Below are positions 7,288-32,690 of a stretch of DNA of 34,171 bases, piece after piece (positions within the stretch are counted from its first letter, which is position 1; each line of letters opens with the position of its first letter). The notes under the pieces are model-generated. The model was given only the letters and a program-made list of their open reading frames with translations. It was not told where the DNA came from and ran no database searches. The position numbers and the translations under genes were made by a program. The stretch is taken from NCBI GenBank assembly GCA_947462875.1, contig CANHQJ010000033.1, positions 1 through 34,171 of the forward strand, read 5' to 3'. Source of the DNA: Verrucomicrobiia bacterium (GTDB lineage: Bacteria; Verrucomicrobiota; Verrucomicrobiia; Verrucomicrobiales; Akkermansiaceae).

Positions 7288-7323
7288 GGGCGAGAAGCAT
7301 TAAGGGGTTTTTGCTTCTCGCCC
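7288..7323. repeat. 12-bp perfect inverted repeat in the regulator/adhesin intergenic region
   Basis: GGGCGAGAAGCA (7288-7299) and TGCTTCTCGCCC (7312-7323) are perfectly complementary around a 12-nt loop. Neither strand has a T-run after the stem, so it does not look like an intrinsic terminator. It lies between the regulator-proximal motif and the half-sites near the giant gene. It could be an operator, an RNA structure or a dispersed intergenic palindrome. Confidence 0.6.
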
Positions 7324-7407
7324 CATCTTTGTGCAGGCCGTCGCTTTTTCAGCACATTTGCCCAACCTTGTGCGGGGTGAGGCCTCGTAGGCATTGGTGC
7401 GGTAAAC

Positions 7408-7434
7408 GTGTAAATCTCTTCACAACAAGTGTAA
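7408..7434 (+). promoter_or_regulatory. Candidate AraC-type operator: two GTGTAA half-sites 21 bp apart
   Basis: GTGTAA occurs at 7408-7413 and 7429-7434 in the same orientation. The 21-bp repeat distance is two helical turns, as expected for direct half-sites bound by the two HTH motifs or two subunits of an AraC-family regulator. The downstream copy touches the proposed -35 box. The divergent AraC-type gene is the obvious candidate binder. This is inferred from spacing and context. Confidence 0.45.
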
Positions 7435-7463
7435 TGACATGGCGTGGAATGCGCTGACATACT
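7434..7463 (+). promoter_or_regulatory. Candidate sigma70-type promoter of the first giant repeat protein
   Basis: ATGACA (7434-7439; five of six to TTGACA) and CATACT (7458-7463; four of six to TATAAT) are separated by 18 bp. This would give a leader of about 80 nt before the ATG at 7551. The weak -10 box fits a promoter needing an activator bound next to -35. Confidence 0.35.
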
Positions 7464-7550
7464 TTCACACCTGTCCGACAGTGAAAACGTCAGTGAGAAA
7501 ACTGTTGGCGGTTAACCATTCACTCCTGTGTCCCGAATTCCCGTATTGCC

Positions 7551-10500: not shown

Positions 10501-13500
10501 CGAACGGTCTCGTGGAGTTCGGTGGCGGCGGTCTCTACACCGAGCTGCAACAATGGCGCGATACCCTGAAACTGGCCGCCAACGACGGCATTTCTACTAC
10601 TTCCATAGTAGCTAAGGGGGCGCAAGCTGCCGCGATACTTGATCTCAATGGCTACAACCAGACACTCACAGGCATCACGCGTCCGACGGGAACGAATGCC
10701 GTTTCCGTCACGAACAGCAGCACCACCACCGCTTCCACGCTGACGCTGGCACCACTCGTTGATTTCAGCTACCCGGGCACGTTTGTGACGGGCGCCGCGG
10801 CCCTGAATCTCTCGATCGGCGGCTATGCGGTCACCAGCCTGAGCGGAAACTCCAGCGCGTTCTCGGGGACGACCACGGTCACCAATGGCGGCATTCTCGA
10901 GCTGACCGGCACACTCGGAAATACCGGCAGTTCCCTGGTGACGGGGTCGGGTTCGACGCTGCGAGGAAAAGGAACTTTCGGTGGCAACGTGAGCCTCGGC
11001 GCGGGCACCACGATTGATGTGAATCCCGCCACAGCGGGCAATCTCACCGTGGTGGGCAATCTCACGGTGACCGGTCCTGTGACCGTAAACCTCACCAATG
11101 CTCCGACAGGTCCGGTGGTGGTCATGTCCTGCTCAGGCACACTCACGGCCTCCGCCGGAAGCTTTTCCGCACCAGCCTATCCCGGCGCCACCTTTTCCGT
11201 TATCGGCAATCAGGTGACCGTCACTGTTTCGGCGGAAGAGCGGACCTGGACGGGTGTGGGAGGAAACATTTGGGACATCAACAATACCACCAACTGGCTC
11301 AACGGGGCCGTGGCTGCCACTTTCCCGAACGGCGCCAAGGCCATTTTCAATGATACGGTGGGGAGCAATCAGACGATCGATGTAGCCTCCACCATTCAGT
11401 CATCGAACCTGACCTTCAGCAACACGAACCGCAGCTACACCTTCACCGATGCATCCACCGGTTTGATTCAGGCGGGTTCCCTCGTGAAAAACGGAACAGG
11501 CTACGTGAACTTTGCCGTGCCGGTTTCCTTGGCGACGGGCATGACGCTTAATGCCGGCAGGGTTTCCTTCAGTTCTCCGGATTTCACTCCATCCAACATC
11601 AATCTCTCAAGCGCGGTGACTGGTGCAGGCACTCTCGCCATCGCGGCGGGACTCAATAATCCGATCACCGTCTCCGGCGCGAACGGCGCCTTCACCGGCA
11701 CGCTGGCCGTCAGCAGGGGCAACATGACCGTGTCCACCACGGCAGCGAGCGGCACGGCGCAGATCGCTATCGGCGACGCTCTGACGACATCGACCGACGA
11801 GCCGCAACTGACACTGTCCACCGGAGTCAGCATCGCCAACGCGGTCACTGCCAACTCCGCGGCGAATCTATCGAAAATCACCGGACCCGGGGTGATCGGT
11901 GGTGCGGGCAGCATCACCAAGAACGGATCCGGCACGCTCGAGGTGTTCAACGCCAACACCTACACTGGCGCCACCACGGTCGTCGCCGGCACCTTGCGCC
12001 TGCGTGCGGTGAATGCGATTGCCTCTGCCAGCACGATCACCCTGGGCACGGCGGCCAGTGGTGTCAATGAAGCGGTTCTGGAACTGCCCGCGGGTGCCAG
12101 CGCCTTCCAGACGGTATTGTCCTCGCCGCTTGTTTTGGGTGCCGCCGCGACTTCTTCCCAAGCGACCCTGAAAAAAATGGCGGGAGAAACGGCGAGCTTC
12201 GATGGCTCTGTCACGCTCAACGGGCGCAGCTTGCGCGTGGCTTCCCCCGGCATTCGTTTCGGCGGCGCGGTCACGGGGAATGGCAATCTCGTGGTGGATA
12301 CCAGCGATGTTTCCACCCCCGTCATCCTTAACAGCACGGCGAGTGATTTCAGTGGCAATATCTCGGTGCTTTCGGGGGTGTTGCAGAGCTCTTCGACTGC
12401 GGGCGTTCGCAATTGCATCCCCGATACCAGTTCCGTTTCGTTAGGCGCGGATGCCGTGTTTTCGTTAGGCGCGAGCGATGCGATCAATCAACTCACCGGC
12501 GCGGCATCTTCCATCGTGCGTGCGGCCAATGGCAATGTGGTGCTCTCGGTGGGCGCGGGCAATTCTTCGTTTGTCTACGACGGGCGAATCCAGAACGGTT
12601 CCGCGGCATTTACCGTGGCGAAGATCGGCACGGGCACAATGACGCTCAATGGCAACAGCAGCCACACCGGATCGTTGCAAGTGAAAAACGGCACGGTCTT
12701 GCTCAATGGCAGCTCTACCGCGCGATTGGAGATCGAAGCCGGCGCGGTCTTCGGCGGCACGGGCAGTATCTCCGATGCTTCGGTTCCTTCAGGCGGACAC
12801 ATCCCGCTGTATGGCACGATCGCACCGGGCGGTTCTGCTATCGGCACCTTGACCATTGGCAACAGCATCGCCCTCTATAGCGCGAGCATGCAGTTGCAAA
12901 TCGCCGATTGGAATTCCACCACACCCGGTACGGGGCATGATCTGTTGATCACACCGAACGTCCTTTTCGTATCAGGCAATCTCACGGTGAAATTGGACTG
13001 TGCCGGTATGACCAACTTCAGCGAGACGCCAAAAACCTTCACCGTGGTGCAGGCGGATCAGACACAATTCGGTCCTGGCATCAATACCCAAACCTTCCAA
13101 GTCACCAACTTCGCAGGCACGGGCACCTGGAGAATGCTGGGGCAGGGGAATACCTTGCAGATCGTTTACACACCCGCACCATACTTCGCTTGGGCCTCAC
13201 AAAAGGGCCTGACGGCATCGAACAACGGACTGGAAGTGGATCCGGATCACGATGGCATCAACAATCTTCAGGAATACTACTTCGATGGCAATCCACTTTC
13301 AGGCAGCTCCAGCCCGCTGCCGCAAATGACCGCGGATCCCAACTACGTGATCTTCCGCTTCCAACGCCGCGATGATGCGGAGGCGGACATGTCGGCACAG
13401 GTGGCCCAATACAGCAGCACTCTCAGCAGTTGGAATTCTGTGCCAATTCCCGCCGCGTCGGTGGCGGAGGATGGCAATGGCGTCATTGTGAACGTGGCGG

Positions 13501-13595
13501 AAAATGGCACCGGTGCCGATGATGTGGAAATCAAAATTCCGTTAGGCAGTGTGCCGGGTCGCGTGTTCGCCCGTGTGCAAATCACCAAACCGTAA
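7551..13595 (+). CDS. Giant exported autotransporter-associated beta-strand-repeat protein
   Basis: A 2014-residue exported protein. Residues 1-24 are a signal peptide (basic KLRK, hydrophobic AIAAIFASLCLT, cleavage after HAHA). The body is Gly/Thr/Ser/Asn-rich beta-helix-like repeat, with copies of the pattern GTGTLxLxGxNTYxGGTxIxxGTL (for example near residues 170, 710, 850 and 1455). Three Trp-rich starter motifs (W-x-NW type) lie near residues 28, 456 and 1229. The C-terminus (about 1877-2014) has DPDHDGINNLQEY, a calcium-binding-like loop, and ends FARVQITKP. No autotransporter beta-barrel or PEP-CTERM anchor is present. A cell-surface or matrix adhesin role is likely but unproven. No Shine-Dalgarno site precedes the ATG. 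Confidence 0.88.
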   Translation: MKLRKSPFAIAAIFASLCLTHAHAATGSWNVNAAGSWGDAANWSGSIPNAVGDEAVFSFDISTGRTISLNGDRTVGKVTIGDPVTTFSAYTIAAGSPSASRLIFDQGDNAGVSLSFPVTSSTANNNISAALLLKGNLSITASATTTAVQTLSGTISQDASNRSIALGGGGIVTLSGLNNYQGGTLINAGKINANTLLSFGSGDVTVNSGGQANLAVAVNYANAFSLAGNGFGITETSNTQSLGALRYAGSVTTGNISIQSAGARIGALNTTFGIHTGNLGGAGNLEINSSTANHSGGFTFTGDLSNYTGTVTLRQGTLKLGTLDIGGSLSVIDGARLYLNTLRADGASPVIGSDSSASRSLALGSSTGAGIFLNPSATSVTSVEGNLVLNGTQTVHFTTAPAATNSLLTFTGTLTGAASQFELPGGIASYRAGTAFQVVSGTPNSIQFNLASESRSWTQAVAGDWNTTALNWDTKTTETFVNGDRLTFGDFNSTAETVTVTVPTGVTVAPTSLTFSNSVKNYLFNGAGIIAGTAQILKTGTGTVTIANTGANGFSGDIRIENGILHLAPSVALNTTRFTMTGGQFASATTAALTVNANAQLSGSVTLGDTTTGRTGSVTFIGLHGFANETSITVARPVSVNFSGRNIIPAALTCATPFDGSQNANLSFTGENQLTADTTINVTSAFNSSNQVNFNGPLGDGANSYKLTKQGVGALRLSSANFYDGGTLISGGTLSVNSPLAFGTGDVAIEGSGQAYLVAAGTYANSFSIRGRGQTLNGFNDTSESGAIHLNASNQILSGTITLTGDARIAGYFSSSNNVISGNIVESGGPWKLELGNPGSANGTGTLRLTGNNTYSGGTFISKKTVQAFSTNSFGAGEVEISNGFTSNGATLATRVEVGAGLEISNDFYLNHGGRTNGTAATQTWGAITAFPGDTTTASVVTLTGDVRIAKTPANGGHFAVQGLATNVLRVMGAIDSTVPVIVANGLVEFGGGGLYTELQQWRDTLKLAANDGISTTSIVAKGAQAAAILDLNGYNQTLTGITRPTGTNAVSVTNSSTTTASTLTLAPLVDFSYPGTFVTGAAALNLSIGGYAVTSLSGNSSAFSGTTTVTNGGILELTGTLGNTGSSLVTGSGSTLRGKGTFGGNVSLGAGTTIDVNPATAGNLTVVGNLTVTGPVTVNLTNAPTGPVVVMSCSGTLTASAGSFSAPAYPGATFSVIGNQVTVTVSAEERTWTGVGGNIWDINNTTNWLNGAVAATFPNGAKAIFNDTVGSNQTIDVASTIQSSNLTFSNTNRSYTFTDASTGLIQAGSLVKNGTGYVNFAVPVSLATGMTLNAGRVSFSSPDFTPSNINLSSAVTGAGTLAIAAGLNNPITVSGANGAFTGTLAVSRGNMTVSTTAASGTAQIAIGDALTTSTDEPQLTLSTGVSIANAVTANSAANLSKITGPGVIGGAGSITKNGSGTLEVFNANTYTGATTVVAGTLRLRAVNAIASASTITLGTAASGVNEAVLELPAGASAFQTVLSSPLVLGAAATSSQATLKKMAGETASFDGSVTLNGRSLRVASPGIRFGGAVTGNGNLVVDTSDVSTPVILNSTASDFSGNISVLSGVLQSSSTAGVRNCIPDTSSVSLGADAVFSLGASDAINQLTGAASSIVRAANGNVVLSVGAGNSSFVYDGRIQNGSAAFTVAKIGTGTMTLNGNSSHTGSLQVKNGTVLLNGSSTARLEIEAGAVFGGTGSISDASVPSGGHIPLYGTIAPGGSAIGTLTIGNSIALYSASMQLQIADWNSTTPGTGHDLLITPNVLFVSGNLTVKLDCAGMTNFSETPKTFTVVQADQTQFGPGINTQTFQVTNFAGTGTWRMLGQGNTLQIVYTPAPYFAWASQKGLTASNNGLEVDPDHDGINNLQEYYFDGNPLSGSSSPLPQMTADPNYVIFRFQRRDDAEADMSAQVAQYSSTLSSWNSVPIPAASVAEDGNGVIVNVAENGTGADDVEIKIPLGSVPGRVFARVQITKP

Positions 13596-18640: not shown

Positions 18641-19819
18641 TCACATAGTCTTTCGAGAGCGGTACGCACTTGCCGACATGCCGGTCTCCCGTTTGAAAAA
18701 ATTGCTGAACTTCGCCATTTGGTCGTAACCGCAGAGGCGTGCGATGCGCTCGATGCTGAATACGGTTTGGCGCAAATATGACTTGGCTTGTTCTACACGG
18801 ACATGCCGGATTTCTTCACCCGGCGTGCGGCCGAACAATGCCGCAAAACGTTTGGAGAAGGTGTGCTGAGACATGGGTACGAGTTCCATCAGTTCATTGA
18901 CCGTGATGCCCTCGCACGCATGCTTCAGAATCCACTCGCGTGCCAGCAGCAAGGGGGCGTCAGGAGATTGAGCAGAAACCGTCGATTGCCGTATCGTCAC
19001 GGGCGGTGGCGAGATCGCCACTTTGCGTGAGGCCAAGGGTCGTCCTTGCAGCAAATCAAGCACCATGACAAGTGCCGCGCTGCCGATCAATTGCCCGGGT
19101 TGGGAAATGGTGGAAATGCCCGGGTGCCCCATTTGCGCTTCACGCAAGTCGCCCATCCCCATCACAGCCAGCCCATGCGGTATCGCCATGTTCGCCGCAT
19201 CGGCCACATCGCAGACGAGACGCGCCAACACATCATCCTCGCAACAAACGACCGCTGGCAAGGTGAGGCCTTTGAGGAAGCGTGAGAGCCGGGATTTGAT
19301 TTTTACGGGGATTTTTGAGAGTCGGACCTTGCCTCCGCGCAGCTTGCCCGTCTCGAAACTGATGGTTTTCATTCCTGCGAGCTGGCATCTGGAGAAAAAT
19401 TCTTCCCTATGCTTGGTATGCAGTGCGCTCGCTGCGGTGGCCCAGCCGACATAGGCTGCATTCTTGCGCCCGAGCTCGATTACGTGATCTATCACTTGTT
19501 GTCGCACTATTTCACCGTCAAAACCCACGCATGGCATGATTTCTTCGGGCCACTCACCGTTGGTATTGACCACTTTGATCCCTTTGCGCAGCAGCTCCTC
19601 CACCCACCGGTCATCACGATCCAGCCACACAATCGCTCCGTCAAAATCCATCGCGTGCCCGGTCAATGGTTGGGGGTCACCATAGGTGTAGCCGATGTCG
19701 ATCAACTCCACGCCGGGGAGCCGGACGGCATGATCGATGGCCCCCTGCGTCAACCGCAGGGCATACTCACCTTCGGTGGGCATGATCATCGCTATGCGCA
19801 AGTGTTTTGCACGTTTCAC
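18641..19819 (-). CDS. XylR-like transcription regulator: PBP fold plus AraC HTH (second copy)
   Basis: A 392-residue regulator with the same layout as the gene at 5877-7055 but clearly diverged. An N-terminal ligand-binding fold (about residues 7-280) shows IAMIMPTEGEY, MDFDGAIVWLD and LAVMGMGD. A C-terminal AraC domain (about 290-390) ends MAKFSNFFKRETGMSASAY. The likely ligand is a small molecule such as a sugar, by analogy with XylR. It is divergent from the second giant repeat protein, with 161 bp between starts, and probably controls it. It faces the pseudogene remnant on the other side. Confidence 0.9.
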   Translation of the reverse strand: MKRAKHLRIAMIMPTEGEYALRLTQGAIDHAVRLPGVELIDIGYTYGDPQPLTGHAMDFDGAIVWLDRDDRWVEELLRKGIKVVNTNGEWPEEIMPCVGFDGEIVRQQVIDHVIELGRKNAAYVGWATAASALHTKHREEFFSRCQLAGMKTISFETGKLRGGKVRLSKIPVKIKSRLSRFLKGLTLPAVVCCEDDVLARLVCDVADAANMAIPHGLAVMGMGDLREAQMGHPGISTISQPGQLIGSAALVMVLDLLQGRPLASRKVAISPPPVTIRQSTVSAQSPDAPLLLAREWILKHACEGITVNELMELVPMSQHTFSKRFAALFGRTPGEEIRHVRVEQAKSYLRQTVFSIERIARLCGYDQMAKFSNFFKRETGMSASAYRSRKTM

Positions 19820-19891
19820 CGTGGCACTCTAGCCAACCATGCGACCGAGTGCAATTCAGAAAACGTAAAATGAAATCTCAGAACCTAAAAA

Positions 19892-19920
19892 TTGCCCAAA
19901 AAATTCTTCTTCCGTATCAT
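19892..19920 (+). promoter_or_regulatory. Candidate sigma70-type promoter of the second giant repeat protein
   Basis: TTGCCC (19892-19897; four of six to TTGACA) and TATCAT (19915-19920; five of six to TATAAT) are separated by 17 bp. Initiation a few bases further on would leave a leader of about 55 nt before the ATG at 19981. The GTGTAA motif of the first unit is not found here, so the operators of the two units may differ. Confidence 0.42.
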
Positions 19921-19980
19921 AAGTATAAGCAACACGTACCTTATCTATTCTTCCAGCCATACCTGAACCCCTTGCAATTC

Positions 19981-22900
19981 ATGAAAAACCGTTTCTCACG
20001 CACAACACTTGGTCTGCTATCAACGATCACTTTGTCTCTCACCTCCGTTCATGCTGTCAGCGGCACCTGGAGTGCCACCACCGGCTCACCCGCCAGTTGG
20101 GCCACTGCTTCCAACTGGGGCGGTACTGCCAACGTCGGCAACACCGCAGGTGATGTGGTGACGATCACCGCCAACATCACGGGTACAACCGCCTACACGA
20201 TCAGCCTCAATGGCAACCGCACGATGGGCAGACTCATTCTTGGCGATGTCACAGACTCTAGTTCGGCCTACACGCTTGCGGTCGGCACCCCGACCACATC
20301 GGCACTGGTCTTTGATCAGCCCGGCACCGGCACGGCGTTTCTTCAGACGGTGGGAACCGGCACAGGCACTACGGGTGGCAATACCATTTCGGCGTTGGTG
20401 AGCCTCAATGATACTCTGAGAATGTATGGCAACCATAACATCGCCACCACGATGTCTGGCGTAATATCGGGCTCTTTCGGACTGGAAATTGATAATGACG
20501 ATGGCGTCACGGCTGCGGGTCCGGCTATGGGGATCTCTCAATTTAACTTTTCGGCAGCCAATACGTTCAGCGGTGGTGTCACCATTGATGACGCACGTGC
20601 GGCGATTACCAACGCGGCGGGCTTTGGCACTGGCACAGTGACCGTGAACAATGGTGGGGGCGCCTGGATCAATGCGAGCAGCTTGACCATCGCCAATTCG
20701 TTCAATCTCAGCGGCACGGGGTGGTTGGAAGGCAACGGCTATCTGGGCACCATTCGTATTGGTAGCAACACCATATTCAGTGGCAATATCACACTTTCTG
20801 GAATAGCGGGCGACTCCTCTGGCACAGCCCCAGATGCCAGCCTCTTCCCACTTGCCGCCTCTTCCACTGCGGTAGCCGCGACGGTCAATGGCACCGTCTC
20901 CGGTGGCGATTTGCTCCTCGGCTCGTTGAGCGTTGACACTGGCGCGACGACCTGGACTGGCAACGAGACGTTGACACTCAACGCCGCCAATTCATACGGT
21001 GACACAATCATCAAACCCCTGGACCTCCCCACCAGCGGTCAGATCGCACTCTCCATCGGCGGTGCCACCACCAATACCACCGCCACTCTCGGCAGCGGTG
21101 ATGTTTATTTGATCGGCGGCAAAGGAGGCAAGATCGCGGCACTGAGGATTTTCCGTGGAAACGGCTATACTCTGACACAAAACATTCAGACACTCACTAA
21201 CGGTGGCACGGTCAACAAGACCGCCTTGATCGCTGATGTCACCGGCACCGGCTTGACCCTCAATGGAAAGTCGGTGCAGGTCACCGAGCAGGTGCGGCTT
21301 GGTGGAAATGCGAATGGTACCACCCTTACCATTGACAGCGGTTCTTCGGTCAGTGCGGATCAGTTTTTCACCGGCAACGCAGCGAATAACTCCACCACTG
21401 TGAACCAAACCGGTGGCACTGTGACCGTATCCAGTGAAGTGCGAGTCGCGCATTTCGCTACGGAAACGTCGGTCTGGAACATGAGCGGTGGCACCCTCAC
21501 TCTCACTGGCACACCTACAAGCAACCCCTACTTTACCACGGGAACGAATGAGGACAGCATTGGCAAGGGCACACTCTACATCGGCATCGATGGTCAGGGA
21601 ACTTTTCAGCAGACGGGTGGTGTGGTGAATGCCGCAGCCGTTGTCCTGGACAATCGTACCAACAACATTTCCGGCACCAACATGGCCACCGGCATTGATT
21701 TGTATAATCTGAACGGCGGCACGCTGAATCTTGGCTCGCCCACTTCCACATGGGGCATCCAAGGCAACGCGAGTTCCCAGTTTGTGTTTGGCGGCGGCAC
21801 TCTCAAAGTCGGTGCGTCCCTGCCCATCACGGTGGCCATGAGCGCCAATGACACCGGTTCGGTGCTCGATACCAACGGCTTCACTGTGACTCTGCAAAGT
21901 GGCATCGCTGGCACGGGCGCTCTCGCGTTGACCGATAGCACCAACACCACGGGCAAGGTGGTGTTCGATCTCTCCAGCAATGCCACCGTGACAGCCGCCC
22001 TCTCGGGCACGCGATCGGTGGAAAAGACCGGCACTGGCTTGCTGACCCTGGCTGGTGCCAATACCTACAACGGTGCTACCTCGGTCACCGCAGGTGGCTT
22101 GCGCCTCACGGGCTCCGTGACCAGTGATGTGACGGTGGATGGTGCCGCGTTGTGGACGGGTGGGGCGATCACGGGGAATTTGAGCGTGGCACCCACCACG
22201 AATGGCACGGTCGTTTATGCCGGCGTGCCGACTGCCGTGACTGGCAATCTGACATTTGGCGCGGCGAGCCTCAATAAGGTGAATCCGGTAGGCAATGGCG
22301 TGCCGGCCAACGGCACGTATCCTCTCATCACCTTCACCGGCGCGTTGACCGGTGGTCTGGGAAATCTGCAGATCGACCCCGCTATCGTGCCGCTATACCG
22401 TCAGACCTTCGGCCTCACCGCGTCTGCTAACAGCATCGACCTCACCGTTTCCGGCACCAGTCTATCGCTCGTCTGGAACGGCGTGGGTGCGGGCGCGGGC
22501 ACATGGGATGTGGCCAGCTCCACCACTTGGGCAAGCGGTGAAAAATTCTTTGCCAGCGATACCGTGACATTCAATGACAGCGCAGCCTCCGCGGCCCTCG
22601 GCAACGCATCGTTCACCACCAATCTCACCAATTCCCTTGATAACGACTTGGTCTTTTCGGCCAAGACGGCGGGTGTGGGCGGGGAAGCCGTATCGATCCG
22701 ATACGTCGTGCCTACCGAAGTGGAGCAACCATTGAGCGTCGATGTCACGGGTAGTGCCATTACGGTCAATCTCGCCACCGATGCCGGAGGTTTTGTCATC
22801 ACCGTCGCATCCGAGGTCAAAGCTGCCATCGAAGGGAATGTCGCGGCCAATGCCCTGGTAAGCGTGGTGGATGCCGGCGCCGATAACGGCACAGGCTTTG

Positions 22901-25518
22901 TGGCTGCCTTGCCACAGACATTTTTGAATTTGGCTACCGTGGAAACGGTCGCCATTCCCACCGATGTCATCGTATCCCCGACTGCGATGACCTTCGCCAA
23001 CAATGCGCTCGATTATCAGATCGATGGCCCTGGCTCGATCAGTGGCAGCGGTGGTTTGCTTAAATCCGGCACAGCAAGGGTGACCATCAATTCCACCAAT
23101 AGCTATAGTGGAAACACGGTCATCGCCAAAGGTGTGTTGGTCGCAGGAGCCAGCAATGCGCTCGGAACGGGTGGCATCATTTTTGGCGATGCCACGACCT
23201 TGGCGGCCGACACCTGCACACTTTCGCTGGCAACAGGACCGCTCACTCTATCCAATCCGACCATCGCGGTAGCTGACACCTGCCTCAACGCCCGTATCAT
23301 CAGCACCGGCGGTACCATCAACAACACCACGATCACCAAAAAAGGTGCGGGCAAGTTGACCATCGGCCACCCAACGGTTACCAGTACGATCACCAACTAC
23401 ATCACAGGCACCTCCAGCGTGTTAGTGGAGCAGGGAAATATCGCCTTCAGCTCGATGAGCGCCATGGCGAACAACATACCTGTCACCCTAGGCAACAGCA
23501 ATTCGGGATCGGTCAACACCGTGTTGGAAATGCCAGTGAACGGAACGGCTACCGGTGATGCAACCACACTCACCGCCGCCATTACTTTGGGAACTTTGGG
23601 CGTGGGAGATACCTCGCAGGCAATCCTTCGCTATGTCGGGTCAGGAGCCAGCGGTGCCTCCGCTTCACTTGCAGGTACGATCAACCTCAATGGGCGAGAC
23701 CTCTATTTGGAAAATACCTCACATATCACGGGCATCCCGCCGTTAGGGACAGCCGCGCGCCTCTGCAACTATACTGCTAGGATCTCAGGTGCCGGCGATG
23801 TCCACGTGCGTTGCGGCACGAACATCGACGGTACTTTCAATGCGACACCGCGCTGCCGCATCACCAACGCCTCCAATGACTGGGTGGGGGATCTTTATGT
23901 GGATACCGGCATGGTGCAAATTGGCAATGGCTCCGCTGGCACCGCTCTCACCGCGATTCCCAACACTTCTGTCATTCGACTGTCCGCAGGCACCCGATTA
24001 GGCCTTGGGGGTGCCAGTGAAACGGTGGCAGGATTGGTCGGAGGCGGGGCTTCAGGTTCTCTTCCTGCCGCCATTATCAATAACAATACGGGCGGTGGTG
24101 GACTAAGCACTTTAACGCTCTCAGGCACTGGAGACTATGTCTATGATGGCACCATCGCCGATGAAAACGCCACCCGTGGCTTCGTGATTGTCAAAAGCGG
24201 CAGTGGCACGCAGACATTCAACGGGCCGGGTACCTACACCGGTATCAACAATGGTGCCACGCCTACTGTGGCCACCGTATCCATGAACATCACCGGCGGC
24301 ACGGTCGCCGTCGGCCACGACACGGCACTGGGTGCCGGTGCGGTGAATCTCAACAGTGCCACCGGGACGCTGCGTTCCGCGGATGCGAATGCCCGCACTC
24401 TGGCCAACCCGGTGACATACTCGACCAATTTCACTCTCGGTAGCCCCACCACAGGAAATCTGCTGTTCACCGGACCTGTCAATGTCGGCAGCGGGGCCAA
24501 GGATTTCAAGGTCCTGAATGCCGTCACGGAGTTCAGCGGGATCATCTCCGGTGGCGGAACTCTCATCCGCAGCAAGAGCGGTCCCGGCACACTCATTTTC
24601 AGTGGTGCCAACACCTACCCTGGCACTACTGCCGTCAACGAGGGCACTCTGTTGGTCAATAACGCCAGCGGCAGCGGCACAGGTACTACTGCCGTCACCG
24701 TGGCCGAAGCAGCAACGCTCGGAGGTTCCGGTACGATCAGCGGCGCTGTGACCACCAGCGGTCCCACGGCGAAGATCGCCCCGGGCAACTCGACGGGTGC
24801 GCTCACCATCGGCAGTCTCGACCTGAGCGCGGGCGGATCGGTAGCCATCGAGATTGACGACGCCTCCACGCCCAAGAACGACAAGCTCGTCATCACCGGC
24901 ACTGCTGCCAACAGTCTGAATGTCACCGGTGCCACCCTAAACATCTCTGTGACCGGCACGCCCACCCAATCGGTCTATGTGCTGGCTTCCTGTCCGACGG
25001 GCGCCCTCACCGGCACCTTTGCAACTGTCACGGGAATACCTTCCGACTACGTGCTGGTATACAACTACAACGACGGTGTCAGTGCCAACAACATCGCCTT
25101 GGTTGACAAATACATGGGCTGGCTCGGCGGCTATCCGGTGATTACCGGTGCCAATCGTTCTCCGGATGTGGACTATGACAACGACGGACTGGATAACGGC
25201 ATCGAGTTCATGATCGGCGCTGATCCCACCGTATCCACGGGGGCGGCGACGCCCGGTTATCCGGTTGGCACGCCCAGCGGTGGCAATTTCGTCTATAGCT
25301 TCAAACGCAGCGCGGCATCGAAGATCTACCCGGTGACCGTGGAAACCAGTGTCGATTTGGTAAACTGGCCACTCGCGAAAGCCTACTTGATTCCCACGGT
25401 GGATGGCACCACAGGAGATGTCACTGTGTCTGGCGAGACCGTCACCGTGACCATTCCGATGGCGCCGGACGCGCGGAAGTTTGTCCGTGTCAGTGCGGCG
25501 ATTCCTTTCAATCCCTGA
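19981..25518 (+). CDS. Second giant exported beta-strand-repeat protein with inserted phage-like domain
   Basis: An exported protein of 1845 residues. The open frame begins at 19807, but ATG 19981 starts a clean signal peptide (MKNRFSRTTLGLLSTITLSL, cleavage after SVHA). Trp-rich starter motifs lie near residues 27 and 828, and repeats of the GTGLLTLAGANTYNGATSV type follow, as in the first giant protein. Residues about 884-984 (NSLDNDLVFSAKTAG to TGFVAAL) differ in character and resemble a module seen in phage structural proteins. They interrupt a normal repeat. The C-terminus has DVDYDNDGLDNGIEF and ends near FVRVSAAIPFNP, matching the shared C-terminal module. No beta-barrel or PEP-CTERM anchor is seen. 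The stop overlaps the convergent gene at 25508 by 11 bp. Confidence 0.87.
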   Translation: MKNRFSRTTLGLLSTITLSLTSVHAVSGTWSATTGSPASWATASNWGGTANVGNTAGDVVTITANITGTTAYTISLNGNRTMGRLILGDVTDSSSAYTLAVGTPTTSALVFDQPGTGTAFLQTVGTGTGTTGGNTISALVSLNDTLRMYGNHNIATTMSGVISGSFGLEIDNDDGVTAAGPAMGISQFNFSAANTFSGGVTIDDARAAITNAAGFGTGTVTVNNGGGAWINASSLTIANSFNLSGTGWLEGNGYLGTIRIGSNTIFSGNITLSGIAGDSSGTAPDASLFPLAASSTAVAATVNGTVSGGDLLLGSLSVDTGATTWTGNETLTLNAANSYGDTIIKPLDLPTSGQIALSIGGATTNTTATLGSGDVYLIGGKGGKIAALRIFRGNGYTLTQNIQTLTNGGTVNKTALIADVTGTGLTLNGKSVQVTEQVRLGGNANGTTLTIDSGSSVSADQFFTGNAANNSTTVNQTGGTVTVSSEVRVAHFATETSVWNMSGGTLTLTGTPTSNPYFTTGTNEDSIGKGTLYIGIDGQGTFQQTGGVVNAAAVVLDNRTNNISGTNMATGIDLYNLNGGTLNLGSPTSTWGIQGNASSQFVFGGGTLKVGASLPITVAMSANDTGSVLDTNGFTVTLQSGIAGTGALALTDSTNTTGKVVFDLSSNATVTAALSGTRSVEKTGTGLLTLAGANTYNGATSVTAGGLRLTGSVTSDVTVDGAALWTGGAITGNLSVAPTTNGTVVYAGVPTAVTGNLTFGAASLNKVNPVGNGVPANGTYPLITFTGALTGGLGNLQIDPAIVPLYRQTFGLTASANSIDLTVSGTSLSLVWNGVGAGAGTWDVASSTTWASGEKFFASDTVTFNDSAASAALGNASFTTNLTNSLDNDLVFSAKTAGVGGEAVSIRYVVPTEVEQPLSVDVTGSAITVNLATDAGGFVITVASEVKAAIEGNVAANALVSVVDAGADNGTGFVAALPQTFLNLATVETVAIPTDVIVSPTAMTFANNALDYQIDGPGSISGSGGLLKSGTARVTINSTNSYSGNTVIAKGVLVAGASNALGTGGIIFGDATTLAADTCTLSLATGPLTLSNPTIAVADTCLNARIISTGGTINNTTITKKGAGKLTIGHPTVTSTITNYITGTSSVLVEQGNIAFSSMSAMANNIPVTLGNSNSGSVNTVLEMPVNGTATGDATTLTAAITLGTLGVGDTSQAILRYVGSGASGASASLAGTINLNGRDLYLENTSHITGIPPLGTAARLCNYTARISGAGDVHVRCGTNIDGTFNATPRCRITNASNDWVGDLYVDTGMVQIGNGSAGTALTAIPNTSVIRLSAGTRLGLGGASETVAGLVGGGASGSLPAAIINNNTGGGGLSTLTLSGTGDYVYDGTIADENATRGFVIVKSGSGTQTFNGPGTYTGINNGATPTVATVSMNITGGTVAVGHDTALGAGAVNLNSATGTLRSADANARTLANPVTYSTNFTLGSPTTGNLLFTGPVNVGSGAKDFKVLNAVTEFSGIISGGGTLIRSKSGPGTLIFSGANTYPGTTAVNEGTLLVNNASGSGTGTTAVTVAEAATLGGSGTISGAVTTSGPTAKIAPGNSTGALTIGSLDLSAGGSVAIEIDDASTPKNDKLVITGTAANSLNVTGATLNISVTGTPTQSVYVLASCPTGALTGTFATVTGIPSDYVLVYNYNDGVSANNIALVDKYMGWLGGYPVITGANRSPDVDYDNDGLDNGIEFMIGADPTVSTGAATPGYPVGTPSGGNFVYSFKRSAASKIYPVTVETSVDLVNWPLAKAYLIPTVDGTTGDVTVSGETVTVTIPMAPDARKFVRVSAAIPFNP

Positions 25519-26892: not shown

Positions 26893-28173
26893 TCATTTGT
26901 TCAATTCTTTTTGAACAAAATTCCGCCAATCGTTCACGGCGAGCCGGATGCCGCGCGCCTTGTGCAGGGTTTCCTCGTATTCCATTTCCGCCTGCGAATC
27001 GGCGACGATGCCCGCGCCCACATGATAGTGCAGTTGCGAGTTTTCCCGCACCAAGGTGCGGATGGCGATGTTGAACTGGCTCTCCTGATTGTAGCCGAGA
27101 TAGCCGATGGCTCCGCAGTAGAGGCCGCGCGGTACGGGCTCGATTTCCGCGATGATTTCGCAAGCCCGTTTTTTCGGCGCACCCGTGATGCTGCCGCCGG
27201 GAAAACAGGCGGCCAGAAGATCGATCTCATCCGCGTCCGGTCGCAAGACTCCGCGCACGGTGGAGACCAGATGAAACACCTGCTCCAGCGTCTCGAGTCG
27301 CAGCATTTCATCCACGCGCACGCTGCCGAATTCGCAGACCTGGCCGATATCGTTGCGCAACAGGTCCGTGATCATGACCAGCTCGGAAATTTCCTTGGCG
27401 GAAGTTTGCAGTTCGTAGGCGGAGCGGCGGTCTTCATCGGCATCCGCACAGCGGGGACGCGTGCCTTTGATCGGGCGGGTCTCCACCTGTCGTCCGCTGA
27501 TGCGCAGAAACGTTTCCGGCGAGGAACTGAGAATCTCGCGGCCTGCGAGTCGCATCCACGCCGCCATCGGCGCTGGCGAGCGGTCACGCAGACGTTCGTA
27601 GAGTCCGAGCAACGAACCATCACCCTCACAGGTGGCGATGAATTGTTGCGTCAGGTTGACCTGATAGATATCGCCTGCCGCGATCCATGAGCGGATGCGT
27701 TCGACGGCGGATAAAAACGTCTCGCGTTTCATGACCGCGCGGAACCCGGAGACCTCGCAGGGTTTCTGTGGAGCGGGCGGACGAAGTTGCGACGAAAGTT
27801 TCCCCTGTTCCCGCCATTGCTGTTGTTCGTGCTGATAGACCAGCATCTGCGGGTAGTGGCCGAAAACGAACGAGCCATCATACTCGATCCAGCCACAGAG
27901 CCCGCCGAGCGGATAGCCGCAGTCAACGGCTTCGCGCTGCCGTGCGCGCCAGAAGCCGCGCAGGTGTTGCCGGTCCTCCAGATGGTGAAGATTGCCGCGC
28001 ACGAGAAACTCCGGTGCCGCGGCGATGATGGATATGGCAGGGCCGGCGTTGTCCGGCGCATGTCCCGATGAGTCGAAAAACACGAGGCCGTCTAGATGCG
28101 ACAGATGCGCGGCCACTTCCAGCGGGGACATTTCCTGCCAGGTTTGTTCGAGAATTTGCTGGTCCGCGCGCAC
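26893..28173 (-). CDS. pabB: Aminodeoxychorismate synthase component I (PabB)
   Basis: A 426-residue chorismate-utilising enzyme that makes 4-amino-4-deoxychorismate for folate synthesis, with a glutamine amidotransferase partner not present here. The key PIKGTRPR motif (about 233-240) contains the lysine typical of PabB rather than the PIAGTR of anthranilate synthase. Other motifs are AGDIYQVNLTQ, SSSPETFL, FPGGSITGAPKKRA near 325 and the ending GAGIVADSQAEMEYEET. The start is GTG; an in-frame stop shortly upstream limits extension. It lies within the minus-strand run, 75 bp after the MglA-like gene. Confidence 0.92.
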   Translation of the reverse strand: MRADQQILEQTWQEMSPLEVAAHLSHLDGLVFFDSSGHAPDNAGPAISIIAAAPEFLVRGNLHHLEDRQHLRGFWRARQREAVDCGYPLGGLCGWIEYDGSFVFGHYPQMLVYQHEQQQWREQGKLSSQLRPPAPQKPCEVSGFRAVMKRETFLSAVERIRSWIAAGDIYQVNLTQQFIATCEGDGSLLGLYERLRDRSPAPMAAWMRLAGREILSSSPETFLRISGRQVETRPIKGTRPRCADADEDRRSAYELQTSAKEISELVMITDLLRNDIGQVCEFGSVRVDEMLRLETLEQVFHLVSTVRGVLRPDADEIDLLAACFPGGSITGAPKKRACEIIAEIEPVPRGLYCGAIGYLGYNQESQFNIAIRTLVRENSQLHYHVGAGIVADSQAEMEYEETLHKARGIRLAVNDWRNFVQKELNK

Positions 28174-28248
28174 GACGGAACCTGCACCATCAGCAAGCCG
28201 TCGTCAATCCCTGCTCACGCGCGGTGGCCGGTGGCGGACATTTTTTGT

Positions 28249-28833
28249 TCAGAATGCCTGCATGCGCAGCGCTTCAAGGGCGCGTGTGATGAGAGCCTCC
28301 ATGGCCAGCAGGCTGTTGTTGTCGAACTCTGTCGCACAGCAGAAGCGTGGTATCCTGTTGTGCCCGAGTTCTAACAGTTGATCCCATTCCTGCAGCAGGG
28401 CGGGAGTCGTTAGCTCGGCACGATGGTAGAGGAAAACGACGGGAAACTCCCGCAGGTCGATGCCTTGGCGCTGCAGGCTGCGGATCGTTTGCACCACTGT
28501 ATGCAAGCTCGCCTCGCGCTGGCTCGGCTCCATGTCCATCAGCAAAAGTATGCCATCCGCATTGCTCAACAGCACCTCCTGAAGAGCGTTGTATTGCCGC
28601 TGGCCGACGAGGCCGTGCAGGGAAATGCGCAATTGCTGCAAAAGTGTCGGTGAAAAGCGTATGGTTTCCATGCGCAGCGCATCGAGTGTGCCGAGTTGGT
28701 AGTTCCGCAGTACGGCACCGCCATGCAGCCGCGCCAGATCGCGGAACAGCGCCATCAGGTCCACCGAGGGCGGGGCGGCGATGACCAGTTTGAGCGCATG
28801 ATCATGAGCCGAGGATGCGCTGGCGCTCTTCAT
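28249..28833 (-). CDS. MglA/Ras-like protein lacking canonical GTP-binding motifs
   Basis: A 194-residue protein that follows MglA-type small GTPases along its core: LRISLHGLVGQRQYNALQE (68-86) aligns with the strand-PGQ-helix region, NADGILLLMD (91-100) with the VDGVVFVAD strand, and GIDLREFPVVFLYHRAEL (124-141) with the strand carrying NKxD. The P-loop position reads APPSVDLM (20-27) instead of GxxxxGK[ST], and the NKxD position reads HRAE (137-140). It is therefore probably a pseudo-GTPase with altered or no GTP binding. It begins 11 bp after a roadblock-domain gene, matching the MglB-MglA pairing. Function is unknown; a role in polarity or protein localisation is possible. Confidence 0.7.
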   Translation of the reverse strand: MKSASASSAHDHALKLVIAAPPSVDLMALFRDLARLHGGAVLRNYQLGTLDALRMETIRFSPTLLQQLRISLHGLVGQRQYNALQEVLLSNADGILLLMDMEPSQREASLHTVVQTIRSLQRQGIDLREFPVVFLYHRAELTTPALLQEWDQLLELGHNRIPRFCCATEFDNNSLLAMEALITRALEALRMQAF

Positions 28834-28844
28834 GCGGAATGGTG

Positions 28845-29669
28845 TTAGAGCGAGCCCATTTTATCGAGCTCGCGGGCGACAATCATGATGGTCTCGCGTA
28901 TACCGGGAGCAAAGCCGCCATCGGTTTGCACCGCGAGAATCGTATTGCCATCACGCACGAATTCGATCGGCACGCTGCCGCTGTACAAGCGCAACTGACC
29001 ACCGCCGAAGCCGAGAGCCTGCAGGGTGCGTTTGAGAGTATCAAGAGCTCCCACCTCGTGACTTCCGATGCGCGCCACGTGGCGGATGCCCGGCAGTGAG
29101 CGCGTGCGCTGGAGAATTTCCTCAGCACTCATTTCACGATCCACACCGAAAATGGCGCGCAGCTCCAGTTGGCGGTAGGGAACGTGTTCTTCCGGGAGAT
29201 CGATGGTTGGCGCCATCATTTGACCGTTCAGCGATTGCTGCGGAGGCATGGCATGAGCTGCCATGGGCTGAAGTGCGGGAGCGGAAGGTCTCGCGGTCAC
29301 GGGAGCCGGGGCAGGTGCCACTGAGAAAGGACTCTGTGTCGCGGGTGCCGGTGCCATCGTGCCCACGGTGGCAAAGGGGCTGGAGGCCGGATCCTGGTAG
29401 CCTAACGGTTGTGCGGTTTCGGCAGCGATTTGGAACGGGCTGTCGGCAGCCTTCGAGCGCGGCGATGGAATTTTGGCGGGTCTTCCCGCCTCGGGAACCA
29501 GTCTTTCATGCGCCTCATCCGGCATGGCGGCAAAGGGAGACTGTGGCACGAGAGGCGCTGCCGCAAATGGGCTGCTCGGCGCGGTTTCGGATGCGAAAGA
29601 AAACGGATTGGCTGCGCCGTTGGACTCGCTTGTTGCAAAGGGGTCAAAAATGCCTCGTGATGTGCTCAT
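28845..29669 (-). CDS. Roadblock/LC7-domain protein with repeated [S/D/N]PF motifs
   Basis: A 274-residue protein in two parts. Residues 1-150 are low complexity, rich in Pro, Ala and Ser, with seven short motifs of the form DPF, NPF or SPF (residues 9-11, 21-23, 33-35, 44-46 and around 77, 97 and 113). Residues about 160-274 resemble an MglB/roadblock domain: MSAEEILQRTRSLPGIRHVA, a central region, then NTILAVQTDGGFAPGIRETI. It is directly followed by the MglA-like gene, so a complex is expected. No Shine-Dalgarno site is visible. The 161-bp gap upstream to def may hold a promoter. Confidence 0.7.
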   Translation of the reverse strand: MSTSRGIFDPFATSESNGAANPFSFASETAPSSPFAAAPLVPQSPFAAMPDEAHERLVPEAGRPAKIPSPRSKAADSPFQIAAETAQPLGYQDPASSPFATVGTMAPAPATQSPFSVAPAPAPVTARPSAPALQPMAAHAMPPQQSLNGQMMAPTIDLPEEHVPYRQLELRAIFGVDREMSAEEILQRTRSLPGIRHVARIGSHEVGALDTLKRTLQALGFGGGQLRLYSGSVPIEFVRDGNTILAVQTDGGFAPGIRETIMIVARELDKMGSL

Positions 29670-29830
29670 AGCGTTGGGAGGGGTGATTCGGGGGCGGGTG
29701 ATGTTGGGAAAACGCCATTGCTGGCTCGGCCGCTATCTTACCTATCAATTCCTTAGCATCAAGCAAATATCGTAAATACATCTTGACATTTTTGACAGAA
29801 AGCTGGGCCGCATGCACGGGGCGGCGGGGA

Positions 29831-30370
29831 TCATTCCAGCGACCTGAGTTGCTTGCGAATGGCCATCTTGGCCGCAGGCGAGAGGCGGTCGAGAAACAGG
29901 ATGCCATCGAGGTGATCGATCTCATGCTGAAAGGCGCGGGCCAGCAGGCCATCCGTTTCCACCTCGATCTCCGCGCCATCCAGTTGCTGGAAACGCACCC
30001 GCACGATCGAAGGGCGCCCCACCGGGGCGCGCACGCCGCGAATGCTCAGGCAGCCCTCTGTCTCGACCGCGCGTGGTCCATCGAGTTCCATGATTGGGTT
30101 GAGAAATACGAGGGGCATGTGCTCCACCATGTCCACTTCCTCGCCATTGATCGTCATGAAACTCACGCACTCCGGATCGTGCGAGACATCGATCGCCGCC
30201 ATGCGCAGGGCGCGGCCGATTTGCGGCGCGGCGAGTCCCACGCCATTGGCATGATACATCGTCTCCAACATGTTTTCCGCGAGTGTGACGATCTCTTCCG
30301 TGATCTCCGTGACCTCAGCGCATTTTTCCCGCAGGACGGGATCACCGATTTGAACAATATCTAACAACAT
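29831..30370 (-). CDS. def: Peptide deformylase
   Basis: A 179-residue metalloenzyme that removes the formyl group from nascent protein N-termini. All three signature motifs are present: GVGLAAPQIG (43-52), EGCLS (105-109, metal-binding Cys107) and QHEIDHLDG (148-156, metal-binding His149 and His153 with catalytic Glu150). Length is typical. It follows exbD by 16 bp, so it probably belongs to the tonB-exbB-exbD transcript, although there is no functional link. Confidence 0.97.
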   Translation of the reverse strand: MLLDIVQIGDPVLREKCAEVTEITEEIVTLAENMLETMYHANGVGLAAPQIGRALRMAAIDVSHDPECVSFMTINGEEVDMVEHMPLVFLNPIMELDGPRAVETEGCLSIRGVRAPVGRPSIVRVRFQQLDGAEIEVETDGLLARAFQHEIDHLDGILFLDRLSPAAKMAIRKQLRSLE

Positions 30371-30386
30371 AAGCGTTTTCTAACAA

Positions 30387-30812
30387 TTAGGGGCCGGGGG
30401 TGGCGGAGGATTTTTTGGCACGGGTGGGCATGACCTTGATACCCAGGCGGCTGAGAGCGCCCCAGATCTCCACCATTTTTCCGAAAGGCGCCTTTTCATC
30501 GGCCTCGACCTCGAGTGTGCGGTCGGGATTGAGCTTGCGCCAGGCCTCGAGGTAGGAATCGAGCAGGCCTTCCGGCACGGCGGCGCCCTCCAGCGCGAGA
30601 TTGCCCGTGGCATCGATGGCGAGCACCGACATTTCCGCCAGCACGGTTTCAGTGGGCAGATCCTTGGCAGTGGGCAAGGTGATTTGCATTTGGTGGCGCG
30701 GGCGCTTGAAGTTGGTGGAGACGATGAAAAAGATCAGCAAGATGAAGAGGATGTCGATCATGGGGACGATCGGCACGGTGGAGCTCTTTTTGATAGGGCG
30801 GGCGAACTGCAT
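30387..30812 (-). CDS. exbD: ExbD/TolR-type biopolymer transport protein
   Basis: A 141-residue inner-membrane protein of the Ton energy complex. After the short cytosolic MQFARPIKKSS lies one membrane helix (PMIDILFILLIFFIVSTNF, about 18-36) with the conserved Asp thought to take part in proton movement, then a periplasmic domain. The open frame starts at 30854, overlapping exbB by 31 bp; ATG 30812 is preferred because MQFARP resembles usual ExbD N-termini and leaves an 11-bp gap after the exbB stop. The choice is not certain. Confidence 0.88.
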   Translation of the reverse strand: MQFARPIKKSSTVPIVPMIDILFILLIFFIVSTNFKRPRHQMQITLPTAKDLPTETVLAEMSVLAIDATGNLALEGAAVPEGLLDSYLEAWRKLNPDRTLEVEADEKAPFGKMVEIWGALSRLGIKVMPTRAKKSSATPGP

Positions 30813-30823
30813 GGGTGCGGCGG

Positions 30824-31513
30824 TTAGTGTTTCGGCGAGCGCGCTTTTTGGCAAACATGGACAAGCTTGCTGAGCAGCATTTCCAGCTCGGTGGTGAAAC
30901 TCTCAATTTTGCGATTGAAAAAGCTCTGGGCGATCACGCAGGGAACGGTGATGGCAAGGCCGAAGATGGTGGTGTTCAGCGCCACGGCGATGCCTTGGGC
31001 GATGCGCTGGGCGTCGCTCATGTCGCCCGCCTTCCCCATTTCCTGGAACAGAAAGGCCAGACCGCTGGCGGTGCCGAGCAGGCCTAACAAGGGTGAGACG
31101 ACGATCACCACATCCAGTTCGGTCATACCGGTGCTGAGGTGGAGCAATTCATGGCGGGCGGTGGTTTGCACGGCATCGCTGATGTCCGTTTGTGACTTGC
31201 CGCGGTTCCTGACGGCCACGGCGGCAAGGCGTGCGAGAGCGGTTTTGCCGCGTTCGAATTCCTCCAGCAAGGGCTCCACCGTGCCCGCTTCCACACACTC
31301 TTCGAAGCGGTCCACCTGAGCGGCGAGGGCCGGCGGGATGATGATGGCGCGGCGCAGCGATAGAAATTTGAAAACGATGATGGTAAAGCCGACGACCAGG
31401 CACAGCAGCAACGGATACATGAACATGCCTCCTGCGTGAAAGTATTCCCATACCGTTTGCAGGGCGCTTTGGGTGGATACGGGAGATTGGGCAAGGGTAG
31501 GTAGGTGCGTCAT
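30824..31513 (-). CDS. exbB: ExbB/TolQ/MotA-family proton channel protein
   Basis: A 229-residue inner-membrane protein. Three hydrophobic segments are visible: about 34-52 (LLLCLVVGFTIIVFKFL), about 133-156 (VVIVVSPLLGLLGTASGLAFLF, the conserved channel helix) and about 172-194 (VALNTTIFGLAITVPCVIAQ). The GLLGTxxGL pattern and ALNTTxxGLAIxxP pattern are hallmarks of the family. With ExbD it uses the proton gradient to drive TonB. It begins 1 nt after the tonB stop (TGATATG), so translation is probably coupled. Confidence 0.93.
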   Translation of the reverse strand: MTHLPTLAQSPVSTQSALQTVWEYFHAGGMFMYPLLLCLVVGFTIIVFKFLSLRRAIIIPPALAAQVDRFEECVEAGTVEPLLEEFERGKTALARLAAVAVRNRGKSQTDISDAVQTTARHELLHLSTGMTELDVVIVVSPLLGLLGTASGLAFLFQEMGKAGDMSDAQRIAQGIAVALNTTIFGLAITVPCVIAQSFFNRKIESFTTELEMLLSKLVHVCQKARSPKH

Positions 31514-31514
31514 A

Positions 31515-32690
31515 TCAGAAGTAGAAATTGTATATCAGCTCGATCGGTTCGTCATCGATTTGTGCTTTCAGCTCGGCGGGGATGGGCGGGATTTTCGCTT
31601 GGCGGATGGCGCTGAGGGTGAAGCCCTTTTGCACCTCGCCGGCATCGACCATTTCCACCACGGAGATCGTGCGCACCGAGCTGTCCGGAGCGATGACGAA
31701 GCGCACGGTGATGATGCCGGGCGTGATGAAGTCGCGGTATTTGGTGCAGTTGCGGTGCCACTCGGCCTCCACGGCACGGCTGAGTGCGCTGTGATAGCGT
31801 CCCATGGGGGTGTTGGCGACGTTGAGCGCCGAGCGGCCCTTGCGGGAGATCGAGCCGCTGAGTTTGGTTTTGCTCTGATTGCCGCGGAAGCCAGGCTCGT
31901 TCGGGTCCTGTTTGGGAGTGGGCTTGGGCAATTCCGGGCGGGCCGTTTCCGCCATTTCTTTGTTTTGTGTGTCCGGCTTGCTCGCGGGCTGGGGCTTGAG
32001 GGCTTCTTCCGCGGGCTTGGGTCGTTCCACGTCCTGATCTCCGGGTAGCGTGGGAGTGGAAGTGGCTGCCATTTTTTCCGGGGACTCGCCCTTGTTTTCG
32101 TCTGGTTCCGTGGGCGGGGTGGTGGGCTGGGGTGGCTCGGTGACGGCGGTTTTGACGGGCGATTCGGCAGCGGTCGTGGTGGCGGGTGTGGGGGGCGTGG
32201 GCGGTGCCATGGCTTTGGCGAGCTCGCGGCTCTCCAGTTTGCCATCTTGCGCACGGCTTTCCGTGGTTTCGATTTCGCCGGGGCGGCGGGGATCGCGGCC
32301 CGCCTGGCTGGGCATGTTCGGCGCGCCGGCGACGGGGAGGGCGTCGCTGGTGGCGATGGTATCGCGTTCGCCGATGAAGTCGGCTTTCTCCGGCGGGGCC
32401 GATGCCTGATCGGCAGAAGTGCGGGCGAACGAGGGCCGCTGCTTTTCTGCTGCGGGTGGCTCCACTGCGGGCTTGGGTGTCAGCGGCGCGGGCGGGGCCA
32501 TGACGATGACCACCTGCTCTTTCGGTTTCGGCGCGATTTTGGGACTGTGCTTGGCGAGGAGTTGTGATTGCAGTGCGAGGAAACCCACCACCACCAGCAA
32601 CGCGAAAGTGATAGCCACGGCAATCGCAAACGAAAGCAACCAGAGTTGTCGTTCTTTTTCCCAAGCATGAGATGTAAGCGTCGCTGCCAT
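31515..32690 (-). CDS. TonB-like energy transducer
   Basis: A 391-residue protein with an N-terminal membrane helix (about 18-42, LLSFAIAVAITFALLVVVGF) after a short cytosolic segment, then a long periplasm-spanning region of more than 230 residues rich in Pro, Lys, Glu and Ala, and a C-terminal domain (about 290-391) with the TonB/TolA-type strand pattern GIITVRFVIAPDSSV and IRQAKIPPIP. It would link ExbB-ExbD to outer-membrane transporters. The central region is longer than in E. coli TonB (239 residues in total). A same-strand frame of almost equal length (31552-32724) lacks these features and is a shadow. Confidence 0.85.
   Translation of the reverse strand: MAATLTSHAWEKERQLWLLSFAIAVAITFALLVVVGFLALQSQLLAKHSPKIAPKPKEQVVIVMAPPAPLTPKPAVEPPAAEKQRPSFARTSADQASAPPEKADFIGERDTIATSDALPVAGAPNMPSQAGRDPRRPGEIETTESRAQDGKLESRELAKAMAPPTPPTPATTTAAESPVKTAVTEPPQPTTPPTEPDENKGESPEKMAATSTPTLPGDQDVERPKPAEEALKPQPASKPDTQNKEMAETARPELPKPTPKQDPNEPGFRGNQSKTKLSGSISRKGRSALNVANTPMGRYHSALSRAVEAEWHRNCTKYRDFITPGIITVRFVIAPDSSVRTISVVEMVDAGEVQKGFTLSAIRQAKIPPIPAELKAQIDDEPIELIYNFYF

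Follow-up and report, generated by a model that had tools for sequence, protein, structure and literature searches.

We identified an ancestral lineage of constrained pseudo-GTPases in the bacterial family Akkermansiaceae that descends from the small Ras-related GTPase MglA. This conclusion is well supported, since the nucleotide-binding motifs are lost family-wide, the altered copies cluster on one side of a single branch and dN/dS values in sister genera are low. The member described here is encoded on a 34,171-nucleotide contig of a Verrucomicrobiia bacterium (assembly GCA_947462875.1, contig CANHQJ010000033.1; this whole stretch is the window in what follows), directly behind the gene of a partner with a putative roadblock-like domain (Table 1). 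Our overall reading, to which we assign a probability of roughly 0.6, is that the pair derives from a canonical module of MglA and a roadblock protein, that the switch was lost toward Akkermansiaceae and that the GTPase-like protein is now a non-switching subunit of the roadblock protein.

Table 1. Positions of the gene pair, its motifs and domains, and the adjoining genes in the window
Feature	Position	Strand	Basis
GTPase-like (MglA-derived pseudo-GTPase) gene, 194 aa	28249..28833	-	ORF, MglA homology, predicted fold
Former P-loop (G1), residues 20-27, APPSVDLM	28753..28776	-	column alignment with GxxxxGK[ST] of 15 canonical homologues
G77-Q78, remnant of G3 (TVPGQ)	28600..28605	-	column alignment
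Former G4 (NKxD), residues 137-140, HRAE	28414..28425	-	column alignment
Partner gene: [SN]PF-repeat low-complexity N-terminus and putative reduced roadblock-like domain, 274 aa	28845..29669	-	ORF
Predicted roadblock-like C-terminal domain, from QLELRAIFGVDRE, without the beta2 region of outgroup homologues	28848..29171	-	AlphaFold, hhalign
Low-complexity N-terminal tail, 7 xPF tripeptides (5 SPF, 1 NPF, 1 DPF)	29220..29669	-	tail end set by eye
def, exbD, exbB and TonB-like gene	29831..32690	-	upstream, same strand; Pfam, gene order

The original prediction, made from the sequence alone, described a pair 11 bp apart whose GTPase reads APPSVDLM at the P-loop and HRAE at NKxD and keeps the GQ of G3; the open reading frames, both on the minus strand, and the column alignment agree with it on every point. 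Across the family loci, the distance from the partner stop to the GTPase-like start is estimated at -6 to 85 bp. Of the upstream genes, def, exbD and exbB have Pfam matches and the TonB-like gene has none; pabB lies downstream of the GTPase-like gene. GC3 is 0.73 for the GTPase-like gene, 0.72-0.79 for pabB, def, exbD and exbB, and 0.63 for the partner gene. Judging by gene order, these surroundings are typical of Akkermansiaceae and membership of a common module is only putative; def is found next to the partner gene, in the same orientation, in seven genera. The gliding motor of Myxococcus is of the TolQR/ExbBD type, and we considered a functional link between the pair and the adjoining TonB-ExbB-ExbD genes. 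We do not claim one, because the TonB-like protein is far commoner than the partner gene (184 versus 95 of 195 family genomes) and because in several genera only def, of these neighbours, adjoins the pair. The gene neighbours thus point to no clear function. Elsewhere in the window, the regions 5877-13595 and 18641-25518 share a duplicate layout; each holds, by eye, a XylR/AraC-type regulator of 392 aa and, divergently oriented, a giant protein of beta-strand repeats (2014 and 1903 aa).

The 194-aa protein is homologous to MglA and has a Ras-type G-domain fold. A phmmer search against PDB sequences matches Myxococcus xanthus MglA over residues 68-167 (E 4.2e-8), and a profile built from 21 homologues, of which one is canonical, matches MglA at E 4.5e-26. 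The AlphaFold model (pLDDT 89.8) retains an intact G-domain fold for which MglA is the best structural match in Foldseek (E 1.9e-12) and MglA entries rank at the top in VIA-align (Z 22.4, rmsd 2.2, 180 residues). The proposed alignment with the MglA core is thus borne out by sequence, profile and structure. The best Z belongs to GDP-bound MglA, with forms bound to a GTP analogue or to MglB at Z 20.1-21.4, an order that carries no weight without a canonical control model; the predicted model itself was built without nucleotide and cannot show whether the pocket is closed. Pfam and NCBIfam scans of both pair proteins gave no family above cut-off, and single-protein Pfam matches to the 194-aa protein are weak (Ras, E 0.043). 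When the genome that carries the pair (97.7 % complete) was searched with canonical MglA, only the gene at 28249-28833 scored below E 0.1.

A comparison of the window copy with relatives inside and outside the family reveals where the motifs were lost. In the order's other families, all 15 homologues found in 22 genomes are canonical in G1, the G2 Thr and G4, and these outgroup relatives carry TVPGQ (SVPGQ in one) together with the Arg-Thr of Group 1. Among 37 comparable Akkermansiaceae copies, NKxD occurs in none, a complete GxxxxGK[ST] P-loop in two and Thr in the G2 column in two; in G3, the Gln is present in five and the Gly in 33. Other positions persist more widely, including the P-loop Lys (29/37), its first and second Gly (36/37 and 33/37), an Asp or Glu in the column of the NKxD Asp (33/37) and Y136, just before former G4, which is present in all 37. 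Living intermediates include GKS with NRAD (as in g12) or NRAE, GKL (as in Haloferula-type orthologues) or GKA with HRAD, copies with no P-loop and genomes from which the gene is gone. The window copy lacks the P-loop Gly, Gly, Lys and Thr simultaneously; its G3 reads GLVGQ, and Asp and Ala stand in place of Arg-Thr in the G2 columns, where the alignment is less certain than at the other motifs. The partner gene adjoins 36 of the 37 copies. Conservation of the altered motifs in orthologues beside the partner, which the original prediction set as a check, is thus what we find; the alteration is no private loss of this genome, and no family copy among the 37 combines an intact GxxxxGKT with NKxD. 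The count of 37 leaves out G003 (frameshift), G076 (in-frame stop) and the weak matches away from the partner in G023 and G062; the fragments of G007 and G065 were never part of it.

Two individual loci deserve mention. At L088 (G076), a single in-frame TGA interrupts the GTPase-like frame and the remainder is readable. At L101 (G131 contig 21, 3433 bp), a fully canonical MglA is encoded, with a degenerate copy elsewhere in the same genome. A search with canonical MglA identified this protein, which by eye presumably resembles Myxococcus MglA, as the only one of its kind in the 195 family genomes; apart from it, the P-loop and NKxD motifs are intact together only outside Akkermansiaceae. Located on a short contig, it may be contamination.

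We characterized the distribution of the pair through its partner. A scan of genome contigs with the window GTPase-like protein alone found no relative, and a scan with the partner profile found 66 related loci, many under the names Akkermansiaceae, Haloferula, Luteolibacter and Roseibacillus and some under broader or other Verrucomicrobial names. Of the 195 family genomes, 95 have a match to the partner profile and 45 to the GTPase-like profile. Inspection of partner loci in 76 of the 95 partner-bearing genomes revealed 36 with an intact GTPase-like gene, 35 with none recognisable, four with a broken gene (G003 entered among these) and one at a contig end, where "none" means that frames of at least 45 aa gave no match to the first family profile, so that the remnants in G002 and G008 are counted as none. 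The GTPase-like gene has thus been lost repeatedly beside a retained partner.

In a tree of the GTPase-like proteins, a single branch separates the 38 Akkermansiaceae rows from all other rows (100/100; recovered in all 200 bootstrap trees). Relations inside Akkermansiaceae are uncertain, because the tree keeps the doubtful G023 row, which has the longest branch, and because other branches, the window's among them, are long. The GTPase-like gene is under purifying selection in sister genera, where frames are intact. Pairwise dN/dS (NG86, own script) is 0.09-0.22 in the 40 most similar pairs of the sister genus g7, 0.07-0.25 in g9 (7 pairs), 0.09-0.20 in g12 (7 pairs) and 0.27 in one pair of g11, figures that are rough because saturated pairs were dropped (dS of at least 3 in g7 and at least 4 in g9, g12 and g11) and many remaining dS values exceed 1. 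Among the 14 best-conserved of 197 columns (genus-weighted) are Y136, L154, A83, D151, K15, G77, A34, R163, R54 and H137. In five of these columns (D151, A34, R163, R54 and H137) the conserved residue is not the one usual in the outgroup, a pattern that favours a new constraint at the altered G4 and at other sites. In most pairs, the GTPase-like protein diverges faster than the partner domain.

The partner consists of a low-complexity tail and a highly conserved C-terminal domain (QLELRAIFGVDRE to the end), which, on the basis of modelling and profile comparison, is probably a reduced and weakly recognised roadblock-like domain. The Roadblock/LC7 fold is alpha-beta-beta-alpha-beta-beta-beta-alpha. 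The AlphaFold model of the partner domain (pLDDT 90.4) shows helices, one strand, a helix, three strands and a helix, with no beta2. Roadblock entries come first in Foldseek (best E 6.6e-3, probability 1.00, TM 0.40), with no match for the domain at E <= 0.001, and VIA-align returns an Asgard roadblock protein (Z 8.2, rmsd 4.5, 94 residues), M. xanthus MglB (Z 7.2) and profilin (Z 6.5). An hhalign comparison with the outgroup domain gives 99.6 % and E 3e-24, interrupted by a gap of some 20 residues that corresponds to the beta2 region. At the outgroup loci examined, this counterpart sits at the end of a protein (about 330-1250 aa) whose gene lies ahead of canonical MglA; partner open frames in the family are about 210-480 aa, as opposed to about 330-1250 aa outside. 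The window partner has six [SN]PF tripeptides and other family members have 0-10, while one outgroup protein reaches 24.

Database profiles contribute little to this assignment. A Pfam scan of the 274-aa partner returned zero families, a search of its own genome with PF03259 gave no match above cut-off, and Robl_LC7 weakly touches one of 30 domains of alignment A4 and two of 14 outgroup domains (best E 0.013). Against PDB sequences, the profile of the partner domain has zero matches and the outgroup roadblock profile only weak ones, among them two roadblock chains (E 0.46 and 0.55). The earlier designation as a roadblock-domain gene is thus upheld by predicted fold and by profile homology to the outgroup, and not by Pfam. 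Four long outgroup roadblock proteins (L056, L057, L065 and L194) contain, by eye, further LPxxxVxxxLP-like stretches; a Pfam scan of L056, L057, L065 and L059 gave no match. Within the window, the C-terminal half of a separate 216-aa protein (4353-5003, minus strand) also reads like a roadblock domain by eye, and the protein has no Pfam match and only chance-level PDB matches. Its gene is overlapped by that of a ParA-like ATPase (4976-5755, minus strand; Pfam AAA_31 and CbiA).

The window's own genus presents a different picture, in which the GTPase-like gene is largely decaying. The window's copy is the sole intact one in the ten genomes of the collection. In six others the gene is lost or broken: the G003 copy is frameshifted (possibly an assembly error in a single MAG), the G007 copy has a frameshift and a partial deletion, G002 and G008 have only remnants, and nothing is recognisable in G005 and G009. 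The partner gene of G002 contains a stop as well. The remaining three genomes (G001, G004 and G006) lack the pair altogether. Of these, G004 is closest by its TonB-like protein (87 %), and the seven proteins flanking its site share 86-92 % identity with those of the window; about 230 bp separate def from pabB there (L200, 5274-5504), compared with 1657 bp holding the pair in the window (28173-29831). In G001, 205 bp lie between the aligned parts of the two flanking genes (L201, 6655-6861). These two genomes thus provide a natural empty site, with both flanks kept, which we read as loss rather than as gain in the window because def adjoins the partner gene in seven genera. Readable P-loops of the broken copies are GPANCGKA (G003), DTANCGKA (G007) and GPPNCGED (G002), and the window copy alone among readable same-genus copies has lost both the P-loop Gly and Lys. 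The Gly-Lys-Ala of G003 and G007 and the Gly-Glu of G002 suggest that the last P-loop residues disappeared in the window's own line.

These patterns raise the question of whether the window species simply carries a late-stage decaying gene, unneeded, still open by an accident of timing and without a P-loop for lack of selection. The single intact copy, the three pair-less genomes with the short def-pabB gap of G004, and the stop in the G002 partner gene all favour decay, as does an identity to G003 of 0.35 for the GTPase-like protein versus 0.77 for the partner domain. This divergence is not outlying, however, as 60 other pairs with a partner identity of 0.70-0.78 have a median GTPase-like identity of 0.38. 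Further points that speak against decay are the intact 194-codon frame with a GC3 in line with its neighbours, the confidently predicted fold and a pN of 0.45 below a pS of 0.84 against the G003 fragment (161 codons; dS saturated), which indicates that selection was at work during much of the time since the split from G003. We therefore consider simple decay unlikely, while noting that, with the gene mostly lost in its genus, the window copy may have little function. The original view of a constrained rather than decaying gene accordingly applies to the sister genera, where purifying selection is evident, and does not extend to the window's genus, in which nine of ten genomes have a broken gene or none. 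A second alternative is that the protein statically binds GDP or another nucleotide through its retained fold, without switching. The widely kept P-loop Lys and Gly residues and the acidic residue at the NKxD Asp are consistent with this, and precedents exist: Group 2 and 3 MglA proteins deviate in G4, and the Group 2 protein CvnD9 still hydrolyses GTP, according to a passage of PMC4316618, while an excerpt of PMC4359372 reports that the human dynein light intermediate chain LIC1 binds GDP and that the fungal one has lost nucleotide. The simultaneous loss of Gly, Gly, Lys and Thr speaks against static binding in the window copy, which is likely nucleotide-independent, and we regard this alternative as improbable. 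For the family, "nucleotide-independent" is nonetheless too strong a term, since the Lys is kept in 29 of 37 copies and most relatives may still bind nucleotide. Finally, the weak single-protein Pfam matches might suggest an unrelated, P-loop-free Rossmann-like protein that only resembles MglA. The phmmer, profile and structural matches, with MglA entries first, and a position behind the partner gene identical to that of canonical MglA in outgroups make such a resemblance extremely improbable.

Conversion of an MglA module into a non-switching complex would have begun with a Group 1-type MglA and a roadblock protein, a module still canonical in other families of the order. On the Akkermansiaceae branch, the switch-I Thr, NKxD and, in most copies, the catalytic Gln were lost, with the P-loop Ser/Thr, Lys and Gly presumably following in a graded way. 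The roadblock protein is shorter than its outgroup counterparts, and the beta2 part of its domain is gone. The G-domain, no longer switching with GTP, would thereby have become a constitutive protein-binding subunit in a physical complex with its partner, presumably docking through remains of an MglA-MglB-type interface and either stabilising the roadblock protein or adding a binding surface to it. By analogy with the pseudo-GTPases of eukaryotic scaffolds, such as CENP-M and the dynein light intermediate chain, the GTPase-like protein may play a scaffold role. The core would be the roadblock protein, which carries the [SN]PF-repeat tail and could work alone; this would explain why, after the ancestral conversion, the GTPase-like gene alone was repeatedly lost. 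A broader formulation, in which the whole family exchanged the MglA switch for a nucleotide-independent structural subunit of a roadblock scaffold and the roadblock protein runs without a GTPase, is tentative and in our estimate falls somewhat short of even odds.

A comparison with described systems places this lineage in context. Group 1 of the MglA family is defined in PMC4316618, a passage of which places Verrucomicrobia under Group 5. The pair shares fold, ancestry and the adjacency of a roadblock-type partner with the Group 1 MglA and MglB of M. xanthus and Thermus thermophilus, and differs in the loss of the P-loop, G2 and NKxD, in its reduced partner with an [SN]PF tail and in that no canonical MglA was found in the genome. 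Bdellovibrio and Bacteriovorax also have an MglA/MglB module reduced in one lineage; there, as described in part of PMC3983030, it is MglB that has disappeared or diverged, and the GTP-binding residues of MglA are retained, whereas in Akkermansiaceae the partner persists and the GTPase is the one to degenerate. CENP-M of the human kinetochore is likewise a small-GTPase descendant, required for complex assembly without GTP binding or switching (excerpt of PMC4080450), although it is eukaryotic and has other partners, and its non-switching nature was established by experiment where ours is deduced. The G domain of the dynein light intermediate chain, Ras-like in fold, shows a similarly uneven loss, nucleotide binding being lost in fungi and GDP preferred in human (PMC4359372), but it belongs to a eukaryotic motor subunit and has no roadblock operon partner. 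Two further papers, PMC12719659, which names both pseudoGTPase and MglA, and PMC13236570, are unrelated to this lineage in the portions consulted.

Among the matches listed in our search of the open-licence literature, we found no account of this lineage, and the pseudo-GTPases found among them, as far as the excerpts go, are eukaryotic. The Akkermansiaceae family thus probably provides a bacterial example of a Ras-related GTPase becoming a non-switching protein through graded motif loss, mostly kept beside its partner. With canonical relatives, graded intermediates and repeated loss all available, the order in which a Ras-type switch is dismantled becomes testable. The same family lets one ask how a roadblock partner functions once the switch is gone and whether there is a GTP-independent task for MglB-type proteins.
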